Below are positions 24,295 to 62,420 of a stretch of 64,000 bases of DNA, piece by piece. This DNA is from Plumapathes pennacea (Eukaryota > Cnidaria > Anthozoa > Antipatharia > Myriopathidae). Made by a program: the position numbers and the translations under genes. How positions within the stretch are numbered: position 1 is the first letter of the stretch; each line of letters starts with the position of its first letter. The notes under the pieces are model-generated. The model saw nothing but the letters and a program-made list of their open reading frames with translations, was not told the DNA's origin and searched no databases. The stretch lies in NCBI GenBank assembly GCA_964036295.1, contig OZ038466.1, positions 3,658,001-3,722,000 of the forward strand, written 5' to 3'.

Positions 24295-26259
24295 CTGCTC
24301 CAACAAAAAAACGATTATACAGCAAACAAACGGTTCAGGTTTATCGTATTATACAATCAACTATATACGTCGCCCAAGCTGCGATCAAAACGCAAAATGT
24401 AATCATATTCATGTACTGCGGACTATAATCAAACTGTGGCATGGTTTCCGGCGATAGGATATGAACTTCATTTAACTATGTCTTTTGTTCTTCACAGGAT
24501 TTTAAGATATCTGAAGATGTATTTTAGTTTCTGGGGCTCCATACATGTCAGACAACCTGACAAACACTTCGTCCAACATACAAGCAACAAAACGAGTTTA
24601 ATTGACACGAATCATATTTAATTCACAAAATAACATGGAACAGAAAGCAAGCAAAAGCCTATATTCGTTTCTTTTTTCAAGTTACTCTAATGAAGTATGG
24701 ATTAAATGAATTAATCAAATGAATTAATAATACTAAAAAAATATAGGAAACTCCGCTTTATCCAGGAGTAAAATGAATTTGTGTCCACAGTTTCGCTGAC
24801 TCTAGTATTTGAGGCATGTTGAATAAACAGTGGGCAAAACAGTTTTCCGGCGTGTCAGCGAATGTCAACCCAGTACAACACGTATACACTGCAATAGTCA
24901 GTATTGCATCAGTGCTATATATTAAAATATTACTTGTTTGCCGGATTTAATTAAATCAAGACCGCGGAGGAAAGTAAATCTTCCGTCGGAAAAGCGAGGG
25001 AAATGAAAAAAATCATGAAGCAGAATATACCGAGCAGTGTATTGCCGCTCTTACTGAATGCGGTTGATTGAGACAATCTACTCGAGGATCGTGAATTTGC
25101 GCAGCTGGTTGTCAGTAGTACACAAACACAAGGAACAAGAAATATACGGAAAACAGCGCATTAAAGTCGTCAATGGTTTTCTAAAGTGGCATGTAGCAAT
25201 GCACACGGCGAAAGAAACCATAAATACATTTTATTGAATATTTCTGTTAGCCCCCTAACAAGCAATACGAAAATCGATTGACTCTTTCCATTTTTCTGCA
25301 AAAGCTAATTGGCTGCGTCACCGCTGTCACAATTACTTTGCATTATCTCTGTTGTTGGGCCTGCCTATTTTTGGACACGGAAAAAGTAAAGATGATATTC
25401 ACTAATGGATAATTTAGCTTTTGAGCGAGTACGCATCTCGACTTTAATCAACCTAACGCATTTATTCTTGGTCGCCAGCTGATTCTTAATTTTTGAAAAG
25501 CATTTTGCTCTCAAGAGAGTATTACAAATTGGTTTCAATTTCAGGAAATCTTCTTTTCAACGCCTATTCATCATCTATCAAGGACAGCTTCAAACAAGGG
25601 TGCCGACTATTCGCTGCTCTCAAGCCTTGATAAGATTTCGCCGGAACTCTAGTCCGTGCACTCTGCCGATCCCGCCTGCTGCCAAGTACAACAATTTTCA
25701 CGATCAGCTGCGCTTAAACTTCCACTCCCTGTAGTCGTAAAGCTTGTGAGAATCGTTCCAAGATTAGTGCTGTAAACAGATTTACAAAACCAGTTTTTCC
25801 ACTGAAGAGTTTTCCGGTTTCTGGCACGTTTCTGGTGAGAAGCCTTACAGTGTCCCTGATCGTTCACAGCTTTTCTTTTGTAGGAGTTGGAGCAGCGACA
25901 ATCGCTTGTCGAACAGATTACGGTCACTTTCACTGACTGCAGGGAAAAGAGCATCCGAAAAGCTTTCGTGGTAAGCTCGAGGACAAGGCGCAACCCAGCG
26001 CCCTGGTGATTTCTCTCTGTGATTCACATCAAAGTTTCCTAAAAAAACAATAACGTTCTGTGTATTCAGCTGGAGTAAAGGCAGTACAGGGTTGAATACG
26101 TGAATGACTCTCGAAAGAAATTAGAACACGAGTGACTGGAGCTTTTGAGTAGAACATAGTGCGCTCAGACGGTCCTGAAAACGCCAATAGTCGGAAGGCT
26201 TATAGAGAGTGAACCAATTTTCCATAGAAGTCGGGAAGAAAAGCGGAAACAACACCGCC

Positions 26260-27285
26260 ATGTCTGAAAACACATCAACGATTGCTCCATCACAAACTGG
26301 GATAAACAGCCATTTTGATCCCGTCTTCGACGGGTTTCTCATGGTGCTAAGCGTCGCTGTCGTAGCGATTAACGCCGTGGTGATATTTCTGTTCTTCCAC
26401 CGCGAGTACCTACAAACGAAGACCAACAGTTTGCTGTTGAGCCTTGCAGTCTCTGATTTGAGCGCCGGTCTCCTCGGAATACCCATGAATATTCTGTGCA
26501 ACGGACTGCTGGACGATTCCGTCTGTATCGCCGCTGCAGTTCTGTACAGATTCGTGGGGGTCTCTACCATCTACCACATCCTCGTGATCACGCTCGAGCG
26601 TTACATCTTCGTGATGTACCCGATGAAGTACATCAACATCGTCACCGTTTCGCGCCTCATGAAGTTGATCGGCGCCGTGTGGCTCTTCTCGCTCTTTGTG
26701 TCGCTCATTCAGTTCAGCTGGCACGAAGAGGCCATCTTCTTTGGCCTCACGCAGAAGATGAAAAACATCAGCCTGGGCTATAACATCTTCGGCGCGTTCT
26801 TCTGCTTCCTGCTCCCGCTCGTCTTCATGGCGATCAGCTACACGCGCATGTTCCTGGTCATTCACAGGCAGATCAAGGATATCCAAAGCCAGTACCGCCA
26901 CTGTCGCGTAGGGGGTGCAAGCCACACCCCACCCGTCGCCACCGAAGCCAGAGCCCTTGGAATCTTTGCCACTATGCTCCTCATCTTCGCAGTGTGCTGG
27001 TCGTCGTGGTACATTGTGGCTATCTTCTACTTCAGTGGCAACCATAAAAAGATACCATCACATTTGGCAAATACGTTCGATTTTCTCCGGTTCAGCGTCG
27101 CGCTGGTGAATCCGATTTTGTACGCTTTTTTAAAGCGTGACTTCGCGCGTGCACTCAAGTCTCTGTTTAAGAGGGACGGGGCGCAGCCGAGAGACAGTAC
27201 ACCCGACAGAAATCGCTCCTCCACTTTAAACGTGTCGCTGTCGAAAGATTCCGAGGTCTGCCGAGAGGATCGCCCTTGTGAGTGA
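26260..27285 (+). CDS. Orphan class A (rhodopsin-type) G protein-coupled receptor
   Basis: Single exon, 341 residues. Seven hydrophobic segments are visible: about residues 25-50 (VLSVAVVAINAVVIFLFF), 58-82 (LLLSLAVSDLSAGLLGIP), 97-120 ending in ERY in place of DRY, 140-160 (LIGAVWLFSLFVSLIQF), 185-210 (IFGAFFCFLLPLVFMAISY), 243-268 (GIFATMLLIFAVCWSSWYIV) and 280-300 with NPILYAF, the NPxxY motif. Asn-Ser/Thr sites precede segment 1. The start at 26260 is the first ATG of the frame and has a strong CCGCC context; the frame is open upstream to a GTG at 26209, which is not a credible eukaryotic start. The ligand cannot be told. Intronless receptors of this kind are common as expanded families in anthozoans. 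Confidence 0.88.
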   Translation: MSENTSTIAPSQTGINSHFDPVFDGFLMVLSVAVVAINAVVIFLFFHREYLQTKTNSLLLSLAVSDLSAGLLGIPMNILCNGLLDDSVCIAAAVLYRFVGVSTIYHILVITLERYIFVMYPMKYINIVTVSRLMKLIGAVWLFSLFVSLIQFSWHEEAIFFGLTQKMKNISLGYNIFGAFFCFLLPLVFMAISYTRMFLVIHRQIKDIQSQYRHCRVGGASHTPPVATEARALGIFATMLLIFAVCWSSWYIVAIFYFSGNHKKIPSHLANTFDFLRFSVALVNPILYAFLKRDFARALKSLFKRDGAQPRDSTPDRNRSSTLNVSLSKDSEVCREDRPCE

Positions 27286-29419: not shown

Positions 29420-29425
29420 CTATTG

Positions 29426-29700
29426 TATGGTGGCCCATCGTTATAATAGCAAATTAACATAAAACTGAAGAAAAAACTAAGAAAAAATATTGAAATTAAA
29501 AAAAAAAAACGACAAAAAAAAAACAGACAAAAAAAAAACAAAGAAAATGAAAAAAAATCAGAAAATAAAACCGAGAAAAAAAATCAAAACAAAAAAAGCA
29601 AGATAAGAAAACAAAGAGAGAAAAAAATAACCGAGAAAAAAAAATCACAAGTCCAGACGTGGCCCATCGTTATAATAGACCACAATGCTTTGCAAGTACT
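29426..29700 (+). repeat. Left terminal inverted repeat of the 5.3-kb transposon
   Basis: A 275-bp repeat in three parts: outer tip with GTGGCCCATCGTTATAATAG (29430-29449), an A-rich tract with scattered C and G (29466-29645), and an inner second copy of the same 20-mer (29659-29678) followed by ACCACAATGCTTTGCAAGTA. The ATG within this last stretch (29685) is in frame with the transposase. Confidence 0.9.
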
Positions 29701-29735
29701 GTTGGCAGATTCCGCTGACCGTAAGCTATTTCAAG

Positions 29736-32641
29736 ATGGCGGCAGCACGGATTAGAAACTCAGATTGGGAAACCGACGAAGAATTGAAGGGCGATATGCA
29801 GAAGTATGTGATGCAGAACCTTCGAAGACAAGAGATATTAGATTTCTTGATGCGAGATTATCCCCAATATGCGTGGAGCCTTCCTACTTTGAGCATAAGA
29901 ATGCGTGAATTCGGCATCAAGTACGTCGATTATAACATCAATGTAGATGATGTGAAGAAGGCTGTTGAAGCCGAAATCGACGGACCAGGGAAGCTTTTGG
30001 GCTACCGATTAATGCACCGCAAAGTTCGTGATCAGCACGGTCTAGCCGTTCCTCGTGGCCTTGTTTATGATGTGATGACAGACGTGAACCCAGAAGGTCT
30101 CCAAGGAAGAGGGAATGTTGGACAGGCAAAAAGGAGAAGAAGAGGGCAAACTGGAACACTATCTTCAATGGTATTTTTTTTTTGTAATTAAAAAATTGTT
30201 GTGTTAGCTTTCCTATTAAGTTGTTATTGCGGATCAAGTAACTTTTACGCCACCCCTGTCCCTTGTAGAACGAGATATTACCAAAGAACGAGTCATTTTA
30301 GAACGAGAAACCATAAAACTATAACGTGTGGTGTTATTTTAGAGTTTTCTCGTTCTAAAATGACTCGTTCTTTTGGTAATATGCTTACTGTTTTTTCTTT
30401 TGTATTTTTGCGAACTTGCTTCCTGATTTGTGGTGCTATTATTTATACAGGGCCCAAATCATACCTTCTCAGGCGATGGCCACGACAAACTTATGGGTTT
30501 TACACGGGACAGGTTTCCTTTGGCTATTTATGGTATGCAGGACGTATTCAGCAGTAAACTCCTCTACTTGAAAGTTTGGATTTCAAATTCAAACCCAAAT
30601 TTAATCGGAAGGTGGTATTTACAGCATCTGTACCAGACCAGAGGTGAGAAAATCCCATCCTGACCACTGCACATCTTTCTTAACAAGGATGATATTAGCA
30701 CAAACAATTATTTAACTAGACAATCCTAGACAACATTGTGTGGGACACAGTATCCTGAGTGGCTATCAACTCACAGATTCAGTGGTTATGTATCCCCCCT
30801 CCCCCTGAAAATGTTGAAGACATAAACTTGACAATGCACACACAGTATGTCTTTGTTCTCTGCTGTCCATCATTGAAATGGGAGGGGGGTAGGGGGAGTG
30901 TGATTGTCATGTGGCAGGCACAAATCATGATTGTGTGTAGGTTTCAGAATTTTCATCCTGCAATATTTTATTTGATCTCACCACCATGTTCTTTGATCAA
31001 CAGTCATCAGCTCCCGTTTACGACTGGACAGAGGAACTGAAACTGGCCAATTGGCCACTATCCATGCCTTCTTAAGAGGTGCTCAAGGTGGCTGTGACAA
31101 TCCAGAGGCCACTGTGCTATATGGCTCATCAACCAGTAACAAGGTTTGCAAAAGGATCAATATTACACATCAGAAAAGCAGGAAATCTCAGACAAGTAAT
31201 TATTGGAACACCCCCTTCTCCTAGTTCAAGGTTGGGTTAAAAAAGTTCTCACTACTGTAGTTTAACTCACTTGCCACCTCCACCTCCAACATTGAGGAAG
31301 GGGAAATGCTAACAGTGTTCCAGGAATTTGTTAAAGAATGCATGGCTTAGTTGGGGTTTAAGGTGAAAAATCAACAGCACTTATGGTTTATGTTTTGTCA
31401 TTAATTCCTTATATTCATAATTACACATTGTGGTTGCAGATTGAGAGGTGGTGGAGAGAGCTTCACCATCGTCTTGAAAAATACTTCAAGCAATAACTTT
31501 CGATGCTGTTTGATGAAGGCCTTTATGATCCAGACAACCAGCGAGATAGGTACATGTTATGATTGATTATGATGTGGTAGATGGCGGATCTTTGAGTCAC
31601 TTTAAACTGAAACTTTTTTTAACTTTTTAAGTTTGTTCAAGAGTAAACTTATTACAACTTACTTTTCAAGTTTAATATAAGGGAAAACTAGTACTTGGAA
31701 GGACTGCCTAAAAGTGCCATACAAGTTGAGACCTAATCCAGGATTAGCCTAATTGAGCTTTGAACAACTGGGCCCATGCTTCTAAAAATAACTCTTTTTT
31801 TTAAGGGACCTCTTGGCTTTTGTGTACATCCCAATCCTACAGAAAGAGCTTGATATATTTTGTGAGACAGTATGGAATCCTCATTGCATCAGATATCAGA
31901 AGGATGCCCAAATACCAAAAGGCATCCCAAATCACCTTTACAGCTTTCCTGAAAAATATTCAGCAATAGACTGTGGTAAGGTGTATTACAAATATTATTT
32001 TGATAATGACTAAAAATGGTCATTTTTGTATAAAATGATGAAATTCAGAATTTATGTAGGTCCTCTCAGAGTGATCTGCACAAAGTCTTACATTGTATAT
32101 TTGTTTTGGGTATTGGAAGACGTTTTTGTTTAAAGTGCATACATGGCCAAACTTATAAAATAACTCAGATTCTACATGTAATGTTTAATAAACAAGCAGT
32201 AGTACTAGTGTTTATCAGATTTAAAACCATGAGGGTACAGTCCGAGAACTGCAAGAACATGCAATGTAAGTAAATTGAGTGGCTGCAAAAACTGAACTTC
32301 CAAAAGTTTAATGTTCTGAAATTTTTATAAAAAATCATATGGAATTTGCCAATGAAATAATTTATTTATATTTTGTTGCTGAGCTACAGTATTGCATTTG
32401 ATTCAGCATAATTATGTCCTGTAGGGTTTTTAAATTTACTTTTTTTGTAACACAAGGATGGCCACTTTCACAAGAAGCACTTGATGAAGTAGCTGAATTG
32501 TCCGGTGTGCTTGAAGAAGACGACTATTTGAATCCCGGGGTTAGGGAGAAATGTGAAAGGATAATCCCAGAACTTTCTGATGTGAAAAGTAGAGATGCAG
32601 CAGAAACCTACTTGTTCTTAAAGGCACACTACAAGGAATAA
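29736..32641 (+). pseudogene. Integrase-core (DDE) transposase of the 5.3-kb transposon, one internal stop
   Basis: Exons read: 29736-30170, 30451-30643, 31004-31143, 31440-31549, 31806-31975, 32457-32641; all GT-AG, phases consistent, 410 residues if the stop is ignored. The N-terminal third is basic and helix-rich, possibly DNA-binding, and ends in KRRRRGQ. The catalytic core matches a family of animal and fungal integrase-like proteins: first aspartate in GDGHDKLMGF, second in RLDRGTETGQ, glutamate in IERWWRELHHRLEKYF. A TAA codon at 31494-31496, 18 codons into the fourth exon, interrupts the frame just after the glutamate motif. The frame continues cleanly afterwards to a natural stop, so decay is recent or the stop is an allele or error. 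The ATG at 29736 has good context; an in-frame ATG at 29685 lies in the terminal repeat. AATAAA at 32680-32685. Confidence 0.82.
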
Positions 32642-32670
32642 GACTGGAAAATATACAAATTACATTGTAG

Positions 32671-32685
32671 TTTATTTTCAATAAA
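32671..32685. terminator. Abutting poly(A) signals of the two convergent transposon genes
   Basis: AATAAA on the plus strand at 32680-32685 is 39 bases after the transposase stop. AATAAA on the minus strand (TTTATT at 32671-32676) is about 170 bases after the kinase stop. Cleavage downstream of each would give transcripts with overlapping 3' ends. Confidence 0.65.
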
Positions 32686-32847
32686 GTCAACCTTTGAATG
32701 AATATGAAAATATGTTCTCAAAATTAACAACCTTAACAAAAAATATGTTTGTCTATAGGAACATTACTATAGTACAGCTTTTCAGTTAACATTAACATTA
32801 AGTTTCCTGATACTACCCTAGACCATTTTCAACACATTGGTCAACAA

Positions 32848-34464
32848 CTAGATATCAGAGACCATCATTTTGCAAAACTTGTTGCAAGTATGTTCATCTA
32901 AAAAGTGATAAATACTGACTGTGGACAGGTTGCCACAACAAAAGTAGATCTCATCTTCTTCACCTTCTGCAAATAGTTCCATGGTAGCAATTTCTGGGTC
33001 GTACAAGGAATATCCTGATCCTTGGATGTCTAGTAGCATTAGCTTTTGATTTGCAAGTGTGTAGGTATAATGTACCAAACATTGTGCTTTCTCAAAGATC
33101 TCATTAAATGCTGGATCAGAATCATTGGGAGGTTTGATACAATTGCCATCATTATTTACATACTTGGCAAATATTCCAGGAACATATTCCTCCACTGTGA
33201 CTGGCTTATCTTTGAATTTTGAGTAATATACTCTGTTGTACACAAATGACTCTCCAAATTCAGTAGGAGTTTTTGATGTGAACTTCTTTGTTAATTCTCT
33301 TGCAACTGTGTGCATTTGCACTTGTTTCCTTGTATGTACCTCTATGTCAGACTTTATAACATTTTTGATACTGGATTTAGCCTTTTCATTGTACATTTTT
33401 ATGACCCATTTCTGGCCAGAACTACCCTGTGTGCATTTATAAGCATCTCTGAATGCTCCAGAGGCAAATTTATCCTCATCAATGGTGAGATCAAGGGACT
33501 TGACTATTTTCCATTCCCTCTTTACAAGATCAAATGACTCAACATCTAATACTACCCTTGTTGTAGAGATGGGCTTTACAAATTTACCAGCTCCAAGGAG
33601 TTGGTCAATGGATACTGATCTTGGGTAGTTGGAATGCATACTTACAGATGCAACTGAGGTGCTTGCAAACTTGATGCGCTTTGCTGGTCTGGAGGGACCA
33701 TGTATATTATCATCTTCATCACCACTTTCTGGCAAGGTAAAAGGCTCACTTTGCACTTCGTCTTCCTCTGGCTCAAGGTTCACAACAAATCGTACAAGGT
33801 AGACCTAATGATAACGTAAGCAATATGCAAGAGGCATGACATCTTTACAACAACTTTCTATTTACATAGAAGACATAGAAGAGGTTGGCCAATTGCACTT
33901 TATCTGCTACAACAAGCTTGTTGTGAGCCCAAATTGTTTGACGAATTACGTGGAATCATCTGACATCTGACTCGATTTACTTTATAGTTATCTCAGATGC
34001 AAAGCACCAACTGTAATTTTGCCATTGATTATTAATACCATGTAATTATGTGCTTGAATAATAAACGTTGTTGTTGTGGAAGATTAACCAGAATGGACCG
34101 ACACAGTGATACATTCATTGCTTACCTTGTCTTTACGATGAGGTATTTGGTTTATGTTTGTACACGAAGGTCCCTTGTTGGTTACGAGTATATCACATGA
34201 ACCCACGGGCATTCCAAAGTGGGCAGCACACGAGCTTTTTAAGTTTCCGAGCGTTAGTTCATCAAACATAAACTCCACGAATTCCCTGGGCTGCACTGGT
34301 CGGTAAGTTTGTTTGTTGTCCGGCTCAGCCATCAACCTCTGAACAATAAGTTCCCGCGGAGCTCCTCCGGCACCTTTTCCACGTCCAGCTTGGTTTTGCT
34401 TTGTTCTTTTATCGCTCATTTTGGCTTGGAGTTCCTTCCAAACCCTATTCATTTTTGGAGGCAT
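32848..34464 (-). CDS. Transposon-borne alpha-kinase (atypical protein kinase)
   Basis: Two exons, 34126-34464 and 32848-33804, 431 residues from the ATG at 34464; a repeat-encoded ATG at 34506 would add 14. Residues 1-45 are basic. Residues 55-120 (REFVEFMFDELTLGNLKSSC onward) form a compact unidentified domain cut by the intron. An acidic linker and KRIKF nuclear-signal-like run follow near 145-160. The alpha-kinase catalytic domain then shows SGAFR near 229, lysine in WVIKMY at 249, LLDIQGSGYSLYDPEI at about 370-385, GNLS at 404 and HTCNKFC at 418-424, the zinc-binding end typical of eEF2 kinase, myosin heavy-chain kinases and TRPM6/7. Alpha-kinases phosphorylate Ser/Thr within helices. 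The frame is fully intact, unlike the partner transposase. Its role in the element is unknown. Confidence 0.85.
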
Positions 34465-34490
34465 ATCGCTCAACTCGCACGTGCACCAAT

Positions 34491-34766
34491 AGTACTTGCA
34501 AAGCATTGTGGTCTATTATAACGATGGGCCACGTCTGGACTTGTGATTTTTTTTTCTCGGTTATTTTTTTCTCTCTTTGTTTTTTTATCTTGCTTTTTTT
34601 GTTTTGATTTTTTTTCTCGGTTTTATTTTCTGATTTTTTTTCATTTTCTTTGTTTTTTTTTTGTCTGTTTTTTTTTTTGTCGTTTTTTTTTTTTAATTTC
34701 AATATTTTTTCTTAGTTTTTTCTTCAGTTTTATGTTAATTTGCTATTATAACGATGGGCCACCATA
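34491..34766 (-). repeat. Right terminal inverted repeat of the 5.3-kb transposon
   Basis: Reverse complement of the left repeat with the same tip, tract and inner 20-mer. The inner ATG (34506) is in frame with the alpha-kinase, so both element genes may begin with the same repeat-encoded MLCKY residues or use the ATGs further in. Confidence 0.9.
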
Positions 34767-34772
34767 CTATTG

Positions 34773-43951: not shown

Positions 43952-57506
<13,555 letters not shown>

Positions 57507-60130: not shown

Positions 60131-61301
60131 CTTGGACTTTTACCGGCGTGTGCAAAGACTCGGTTCCAGTCTCTATTATGCAATATGTCCCATGATCCTT
60201 TGGGAGCACGGAAAGAAAAAACGTGGTAGCACGTGATAATGCTCAAACCTCTAGCACCGCACGTTGCTTAATAAATGATGGCGAAAACCTGCAGACTGCC
60301 CAGCTATCATCTTTGAAGTAATCGCAGGCTGGGTGTCGTTATCAGCTGCAACGAGTCATTGCGCATTTTGTGGTTCAGTCAGTGCGTCGGGCAGTAGAAT
60401 TCAAGCTGCAGGTGGAGTGCTAGAAAAGCACTCATGCCGTACTTCATTGCCGGTGTTAGCAGAGACCGTTTATTTCAAGTGCAATTTGGCTTTTCAGGCT
60501 GACTAAAAATAGAAAATGTAACTCTAAAGACCTACATAGCCTGGAGGTTTGTAAACATCAAATAAAAAACGCGACATGTTCAAATTACAAAATGCTTACT
60601 CTTGTTTCAGTTTTCCTAGTACATGTGCAAAGTACCTAATGGTTACCAGAACTAAAAGCAAAAATCTGAAGTCGGAGCTAAATTGGACTCTTTTCTTGCT
60701 GAACGGCAGTTTGTTAGTATAATCAATATTGACTTGTGACAAACTAAACTTCCGCATGAAAACCGGAACAGAGCATATGAGCTTCTGGTCAATAACCCGG
60801 AAACACAACATTCTGCGGATGATAAAAGGCCAATATGATTATGGTCATTTTTATATATCTGTCGTTTCTCATGAATAGAAAAAGTAATGAATGCAAAACA
60901 GTTCTTTGTCATATGGTGAGCTTTCTTATCAAAAGCACCAATAACGGCTGTGACCCCCAATAATGGACTGCGAAAATAGGAAATTTTCCTAGATAAAAAG
61001 ACGTGGCCCTTCTTTTCACAATATATTAAGTAATTCTCCTGTTAAGTTGTCTCCTACTGCCAAGTATAAATATAGCTGTAACGACGCCATATAATTAATT
61101 CACCACAACTGAAATCAGACTGAACCAATGAGCAGATGTTCAGATTTTCATTTCATATTCGATTTCTGATCATTTTATTTTAGACACATCCAGATCGAAT
61201 TGATTTAATAGGTAAGGTTTGACACCGCAGTGACAACAGTCCAACGGACACTTCCCCTGGCTTGACCAATTGCGTCTTTCCTGCTTCACTTTCGAGTGAA
61301 C
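60131..61301. other. Spacer between divergent UQCRH and GPCR genes
   Basis: It contains the upstream regions of both genes. A TATAAATATA near 61065 is a possible core promoter element for the receptor gene. I see no coding sequence or clear repeat. Confidence 0.45.
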
Positions 61302-62420
61302 ATGAACAACACGTCCCCGCGAGATCACGGCGATGATGCGGCATGTGAACTAAGGGAACTGCCTTTAATTTCTTCGGTAATGTTGATTTGTTTGAGCACT
61401 CTATCAGGGCTAACAGCTTTGCTTGGGAATGCGTTGGTCGTGTTGGCTATTCACCGAACGACAACGCTGAGGATTGCGTCAAATTACTTTATTGCGTCTC
61501 TGGCCGTAGCTGATTTCTCTGTCGGCTTACTTATGTACCCGGTGCTAATCGCCAAAGTCTCGGCAAACATTTGGCAGGGGGAGCACTGGCTGTCCAAAAC
61601 GGCCGACTTTTTATGGATGCAGACGACTACAACGACGACTTTTAATTTGTGTGCAGTGAGCCTAGACCGCTACATTGCCATAACCGCTGTTTTTAAATAC
61701 CATAGAATTGTTACGAAAAAGAAGTCTTTGAAGGCCATTGCTTTTATTTGGACTTTTTCGTTTATCTTCGCCAGCCTTCGGCTGTTTGTGACCAGCGCCA
61801 CCCATTATTCCAAGCTGTGGATTGCAACAACGCTGTTAACTGTGGTCCTACCATTGATAATAGTCGGCATTTGCTACTACCGCATTTACAGAGAGGCGAA
61901 AACTCAGTCGCGTAAAATTGCTAAGAATTGTCTCGGCGCAGAAGAAGCCGCCATATCTACAAAAAATAGAAAGGCTGCGTGGACAGCGGCCATTATCATA
62001 GGCCTCTTCGTCGTGTTCTGGTTGCCAAGCCTCATTGCGTCTGTTGTGGAGTTGATGGTTACACAGCCTTGCCAGAGAGCGAAGATTGACTACGCGTGGT
62101 TTTGGATTGCAGTGCTTTCGTTTAGCTCTTCTGCTTTCAATCCTTGGGTTTACACCATACGCATCCAGGAATTTCGTAACACTATGCGCAGGATCATCTT
62201 CTGCCGCGCTGGCGGTATTCCCGCCAGAATCTCGGAATGGGAAATTAGCAGAGAGACGAGCCGGAGACTTAGCGTATTGTATAAGCTGCCAAACGTTAAG
62301 CACAGTGGTGTTTTGGAACTGCAAATAGATAAATTTGAAAGCAAACTGCGTCGGGAGATTGATGACGGCGAAACGTCAAAAAGTGGCACGTACAAGTTCT
62401 TAACCAGAGCTGATCAGTAG
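61302..62420 (+). CDS. Orphan class A (amine/melanocortin-like) G protein-coupled receptor
   Basis: Single exon, 372 residues. Seven hydrophobic segments with the class A landmarks: GNALVVLAI in segment 1, ASLAVADFSVGLLMYP in segment 2, DRYIAIT after segment 3, FIWTFSFIFASL in 4, LLTVVLPLIIVGICYYRIYR in 5, FVVFWLPSLIAS (CWxP-like with F) in 6 and FNPWVYTIR (NPxxY) in 7. An N-glycosylation site lies near the start. The C-terminal tail is long and charged. ATG at 61302 is taken as start; the frame extends only to a GTG two codons upstream. The general build resembles biogenic-amine-like receptors expanded in cnidarians, but segment 3 lacks an obvious amine-binding aspartate, so the ligand is unknown. 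Confidence 0.88.
   Translation: MNNTSPRDHGDDAACELRELPLISSVMLICLSTLSGLTALLGNALVVLAIHRTTTLRIASNYFIASLAVADFSVGLLMYPVLIAKVSANIWQGEHWLSKTADFLWMQTTTTTTFNLCAVSLDRYIAITAVFKYHRIVTKKKSLKAIAFIWTFSFIFASLRLFVTSATHYSKLWIATTLLTVVLPLIIVGICYYRIYREAKTQSRKIAKNCLGAEEAAISTKNRKAAWTAAIIIGLFVVFWLPSLIASVVELMVTQPCQRAKIDYAWFWIAVLSFSSSAFNPWVYTIRIQEFRNTMRRIIFCRAGGIPARISEWEISRETSRRLSVLYKLPNVKHSGVLELQIDKFESKLRREIDDGETSKSGTYKFLTRADQ

Follow-up and report, generated by a model that had tools for sequence, protein, structure and literature searches.

An IS3EU-kind DNA transposon of Plumapathes pennacea with an alpha-kinase gene convergent to its transposase gene

We describe here a stretch of 64,000 nucleotides from Plumapathes pennacea (contig OZ038466.1, positions 3,658,001 to 3,722,000; hereafter the window), in which positions 29426-34766 are a complete DNA transposon with two genes, of the IS3EU (IS3EU/GingerRoot) kind. 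As the initial annotation had noted, the element is flanked by an exact 6-bp target-site duplication, CTATTG, at 29420-29425 and 34767-34772; its terminal inverted repeats, given there as 275 bp, are present and slightly longer, at about 280 bp, and are 99% identical to each other. The ends of the element read TATGG..CCATA, and a 20-mer, GTGGCCCATCGTTATAATAG, occurs twice in each inverted repeat at a spacing of 229-230 bp (4 matches in the window; 100 shuffled versions gave 0.00 on average). Between the repeats, a transposase gene on the plus strand and an alpha-kinase gene on the minus strand converge, their 3' ends lying about 200 bp apart. In window coordinates, the features are:

29420..29425, no strand: left target-site duplication CTATTG
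29426..29705, plus strand: left terminal inverted repeat, starting TATGG, with two copies of GTGGCCCATCGTTATAATAG (29430-29449, 29659-29678)
29736..30170, plus strand: transposase exon 1, N-terminal helical region (predicted)
30451..30643, plus strand: transposase exon 2, first catalytic D (DGHD)
31004..31143, plus strand: transposase exon 3, second catalytic D (LDRGTETG)
31440..31549, plus strand: transposase exon 4, catalytic E (IERWW) and the in-frame stop of the window copy
31806..31975, plus strand: transposase exon 5
32457..32641, plus strand: transposase exon 6, final stop
32848..33804, minus strand: alpha-kinase exon 2, linker and catalytic domain, stop
34126..34464, minus strand: alpha-kinase exon 1, N-terminal domain, 113 codons (64% identity to its family B match)
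34486..34766, minus strand: right terminal inverted repeat, ending CCATA
34767..34772, no strand: right target-site duplication CTATTG

The window transposase has six exons, the splice sites of which were set by eye and are backed by exon-by-exon matches, exon 1 included, in the diverged family B (below), and it carries one in-frame stop. Searched exon by exon against domain profiles, it gives a single sub-threshold match, to rva_4 (16.9 bits, cut-off 26); the spliced translation, with X at the stop, matches rva_4 (PF24764) with an E-value of 1.2e-19 and 71.2 bits. Among aligned homologues (50 of the 120 listed transposases), the catalytic residues are retained as D in 49/50, D in 50/50 and E in 50/50. 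TnsB, MuA and HIV integrase are among the top fold matches, all weak, with template modelling (TM) scores of at most 0.34 by query length. Within the first intron, at 30283-30373, lies an imperfect inverted repeat of 39 bp with arms 13 bp apart. The kinase gene, on the other hand, encodes an uncommon type of protein kinase, has two exons, is open over 431 residues and matches PF02816 (E-value 1.2e-30, 107.4 bits, cut-off 21.3), so that the integrase-type DDE enzyme and the alpha-kinase proposed by the initial annotation, the one interrupted and the other intact, are both borne out. The window kinase has the catalytic Lys, Glu, Asp, Gln and Asn and the zinc-binding His and Cys, with residue roles as in the TRPM7 structure. 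The catalytic residues are retained across 121 aligned kinases (the window kinase and 120 listed of the 158 found), and this conservation points clearly to long-term constraint on the kinase. An alpha-kinase fold is predicted, the structural comparison covering residues 180-426, and the N-terminal domain is predicted to consist of strands and one helix. The nearest named homologues are mostly cnidarian. A search of viral_contigs for alpha-kinase relatives with three peptide patterns matched 51 stretches and confirmed none, which does not in itself show absence.

The element is one of a family, here family A. A search of the assembly (290 Mb, 24 contigs) with the inverted repeat gave at least 40 matches and located further copies with both genes, matching ends and duplications of their own. 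Beside the window copy, L031, L032, L033, L034 and L035 are complete or almost complete; an internal deletion shared by L036 and L037 truncates the kinase; and L039 and L040, ends that both carry GACAAG and are separated by about 23 kb, are read as one element split by a later insertion. Both ends could be located in 8 copies, and their duplications are recognisable and differ from copy to copy: in 4 the 6 bp match exactly, in 2 there is one mismatch, in 1 the duplication is shifted by one base and in 1 it measures 8 bp; L035, L038 and L041, with one end missing or rearranged, were excluded from this count. Many of the 6-bp duplications start with C and end with G, a possible target preference. 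Over 5350 bp, L031 and L032 show no difference at all and their flanks are unrelated, which indicates recent movement; yet their transposase has two stops. The transposase is open in none of the six near-complete copies and the kinase in four (the window copy, L031, L032 and L035, the last with a Gly to Val change beside a catalytic motif); the kinase of L033 has a stop and that of L034 has frameshifts. Family A copies presumably depend for their movement on transposase from elsewhere. The suggestion that the kinase is selected for itself finds a kinase open in three of five distinct copies (L031 and L032 counted as one) against a transposase open in none, too small a sample to carry that claim.

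The same pair of genes recurs well beyond family A. Searches with the kinase and with the first transposase exon gave 80 and 141 matches, which cluster into 63 kinase and 123 transposase loci, and a convergent transposase lies within 7 kb of 34 of the 63 kinase loci, compared with a mean of 0.185 over 200 random placements. For the reverse comparison, 45 first-exon matches covering at least 120 residues were hand-picked from the 141 and tallied against all 80 kinase matches. Forty of them have at least 44% identity, and for these a subset of the data (37/80 and 40/45) gave the same result: 30 are free of stops, with a convergent kinase within 15 kb in 26 and within 7 kb in 23, and no kinase was detected within 15 kb of the 10 that bear stops, nor of the 5 matches of 27-33% identity. 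In family B (L072), the repeats are about 350 bp long, the duplication, CTGTAT, is exact and both genes are stop-free. Family C (L073) has a single-exon kinase, stop-free matched pieces and GTTGTC on both flanks, with two extra bases on the left. The convergent pair is present in copies at unrelated sites and again in diverged families, which shows the kinase to be a standard second gene in this clade of elements, as had been proposed, and not a chance capture. The notion that a unique host gene was trapped by accident between the two inverted repeats has nothing in its favour beyond the single window copy; it is thereby refuted, and we regard it as hardly conceivable. Copies without the kinase, which would have told against its standard place, were found only as the deletion derivatives L036 and L037, whose kinase is truncated, and as decayed or distant transposase copies beside which no kinase was detected. 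At each of C1:14753214/14754712 and C6:1839775/1841279 of G000, two transposase first exons converge across about 1.1 kb, and no kinase was detected there; these pairs are possibly palindromic, non-autonomous derivatives. Linkage may extend to other species, where the match pairs P0291/P0128, P0259/P0202 and P0045/P0162 fall on sequences of equal size (374143, 969663 and 64267, respectively).

What might such a kinase do for the element? In families A, B and C, both start codons lie 14-39 bp inward of the inverted repeats (31 and 22, 14 and 39, and 25 and 15 bp, respectively), and because of this placement we infer that the repeats would drive expression of both genes from one common promoter sequence. 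The kinase would be made as an active enzyme working in trans for the element. Judged from sequence, we consider it likely that the kinase belongs to the element as a standard second gene and that its active product acts in this way. Several observations nevertheless weigh against this reading. No convergent transposase lies within 7 kb of 29 of the 63 kinase loci; a kinase accompanies only 34 of the 123 transposase loci, many of which are fragments, and none of the 42 below 42% identity, so that more distant transposases may lack a kinase or have one too diverged for detection. Copies with a truncated kinase have moved, and the kinase thus need not be encoded in cis. Pairwise ratios of nonsynonymous to synonymous substitution rates (dN/dS) for the family A kinase scatter around 1 (0.35-4.24, on few differences). 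Finally, from family to family, the kinase distances are a poor match for those of the transposase (eight representatives, r 0.44, with 1377 of 40320 permutations as high), which speaks against tight co-adaptation; over 16 loci r is 0.95, with 0 of 2000 permutations as high, a value driven by near-copies. The kinases of L060 and L067 are closer (0.41) than their transposases (0.48) would suggest, and for L065 and L066 the order is reversed (0.52 and 0.30); from these distances, kinase genes have possibly been exchanged between families.

After exclusion of pairs with 8 or fewer differences or with a synonymous divergence (dS) of at least 1.3, the kinase dN/dS is 0.26-0.54 among family C copies, L063 included, 0.31-0.50 among L055, L056, L057 and L070 (0.35 for the L055/L056 pair), and about 1 in the set around L064. 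In family A, the few differences available do not demonstrate recent selection on the kinase.

These values bear directly on whether the kinase is a passenger, captured once and carried along without helping the element. The ratios near 1 among several family A copies and the movement of kinase-truncated derivatives are what neutrality would predict, but a passenger would hardly be expected to keep its catalytic residues throughout the aligned kinases, to stay open in families whose protein sequences differ by about 44-60%, or to have the low ratios of family C and of L055/L056; the pair also recurs in fungi, as reported in a passage of PMC12730594. We therefore think a passenger improbable. 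Still less credible is a domesticated kinase of transposon origin that the host has retained at the window locus: an open kinase beside a broken transposase would fit it, but the intact ends, the exact duplication and 99.5% identity to two copies elsewhere mark the window copy as a recent insertion.

If the kinase does act in trans for the element, several targets may be proposed. Our leading guess, which we hold with a little less than even confidence, is the transposase or transpososome, the phosphorylation of which would license or limit transposition. Chromatin or silencing factors at the element come second, as a tentative proposal, and some other target appears rather unlikely. In a rival reading, the kinase is an anti-silencing factor: it would act on histones or silencing proteins by phosphorylation and thereby play a part comparable to that of VANC proteins, or of the TET/JBP genes in fungal IS3EU elements. 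A basic cluster, K[KR]x[KR], that could favour nuclear entry is enriched in the linkers (46 of the 150 extracted from 241, with 91 left out; shuffled mean 14.5, maximum 25, the shuffles ignoring relatedness), but 104 of the 150 lack it. The TRPM7 kinase fragment phosphorylates histone H3. In fungal IS3EU families, a TET/JBP gene sits between the same two genes, according to the passage in PMC12730594. Animal and fungal silencing systems differ, on the other hand, and a target inside the element therefore fits better; anti-silencing is thus possible, without being our first choice.

Taken further, the alpha-kinase may be an ancestral and standard gene of a whole clade of IS3EU transposons common to animals and fungi. 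Its expression would be coordinated with that of the transposase through the identical repeats, and it would license transposition or lift silencing, a proposal that we see as evenly balanced. If true, a class of DNA transposons brings its own protein kinase, and many of the TRPM6-like, eEF2K, vwkA-like and myosin-heavy-chain-kinase-like genes in cnidarian, and perhaps hemichordate, gene sets are transposon genes. Alpha-kinases annotated under host names in cnidarian genomes may thus distort counts of gene-family expansion. The element also makes it testable whether mobile DNA regulates its own transposition, or host silencing, via phosphorylation.

Elsewhere in the window, an open frame of YSPTSPS-type heptads at 43952-45358 on the minus strand is presumably the tail of the largest RNA polymerase II subunit, and an exon at 47661-48230 may belong to the same gene. 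Two long single-exon frames on the plus strand, at 26206-27285 and 61266-62420, resemble rhodopsin-type receptors.

Among known systems, the assignment of the window element to IS3EU is well supported at the sequence level because of its integrase-type DDE transposase, 6-bp duplications and TA..TA ends, all of which it shares with IS3EU/GingerRoot as characterised in the available text of PMC10045372, where the word 'kinase' does not occur. Its kinase resembles TRPM7, MHCK-A and eEF2K in the sequence and predicted fold of the catalytic domain, with about 20-25% identity in structural alignments; unlike them, it lacks a channel or WD repeats and has its own N-terminal domain, and in a tree with two cellular references only, a long branch separates the transposon-like kinases from the others (support 96/96). 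ProtoRAG and RAG-like transposons, from the part of PMC7204232 at hand, are likewise DNA transposons in which the gene for a DDE enzyme converges with that of an accessory partner, both unrelated to those of the window element. Searches of papers, limited to an incomplete set of open-licence texts that leaves out Repbase, showed no account of an alpha-kinase/transposase pair in animals. The initial view that no transposon with an alpha-kinase had been described does not hold, and novelty is limited, since one passage of PMC12730594 (Kojima 2025) already states that TET-bearing fungal IS3EU families have an alpha-kinase opposite in orientation to the transposase, with ends TAYGG..CCRTA, 6-bp duplications and repeats longer than 30 bp. 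Compared with the families of that passage, the window element is hosted by an animal, has repeats of about 280 bp and shows no detected TET/JBP gene; it has in common with them the 6-bp duplications, the type of ends, repeats above 30 bp and the opposed transposase and alpha-kinase. With this one source linking animal and fungal elements, through a described gene arrangement, the kinase as a second gene is probably old.
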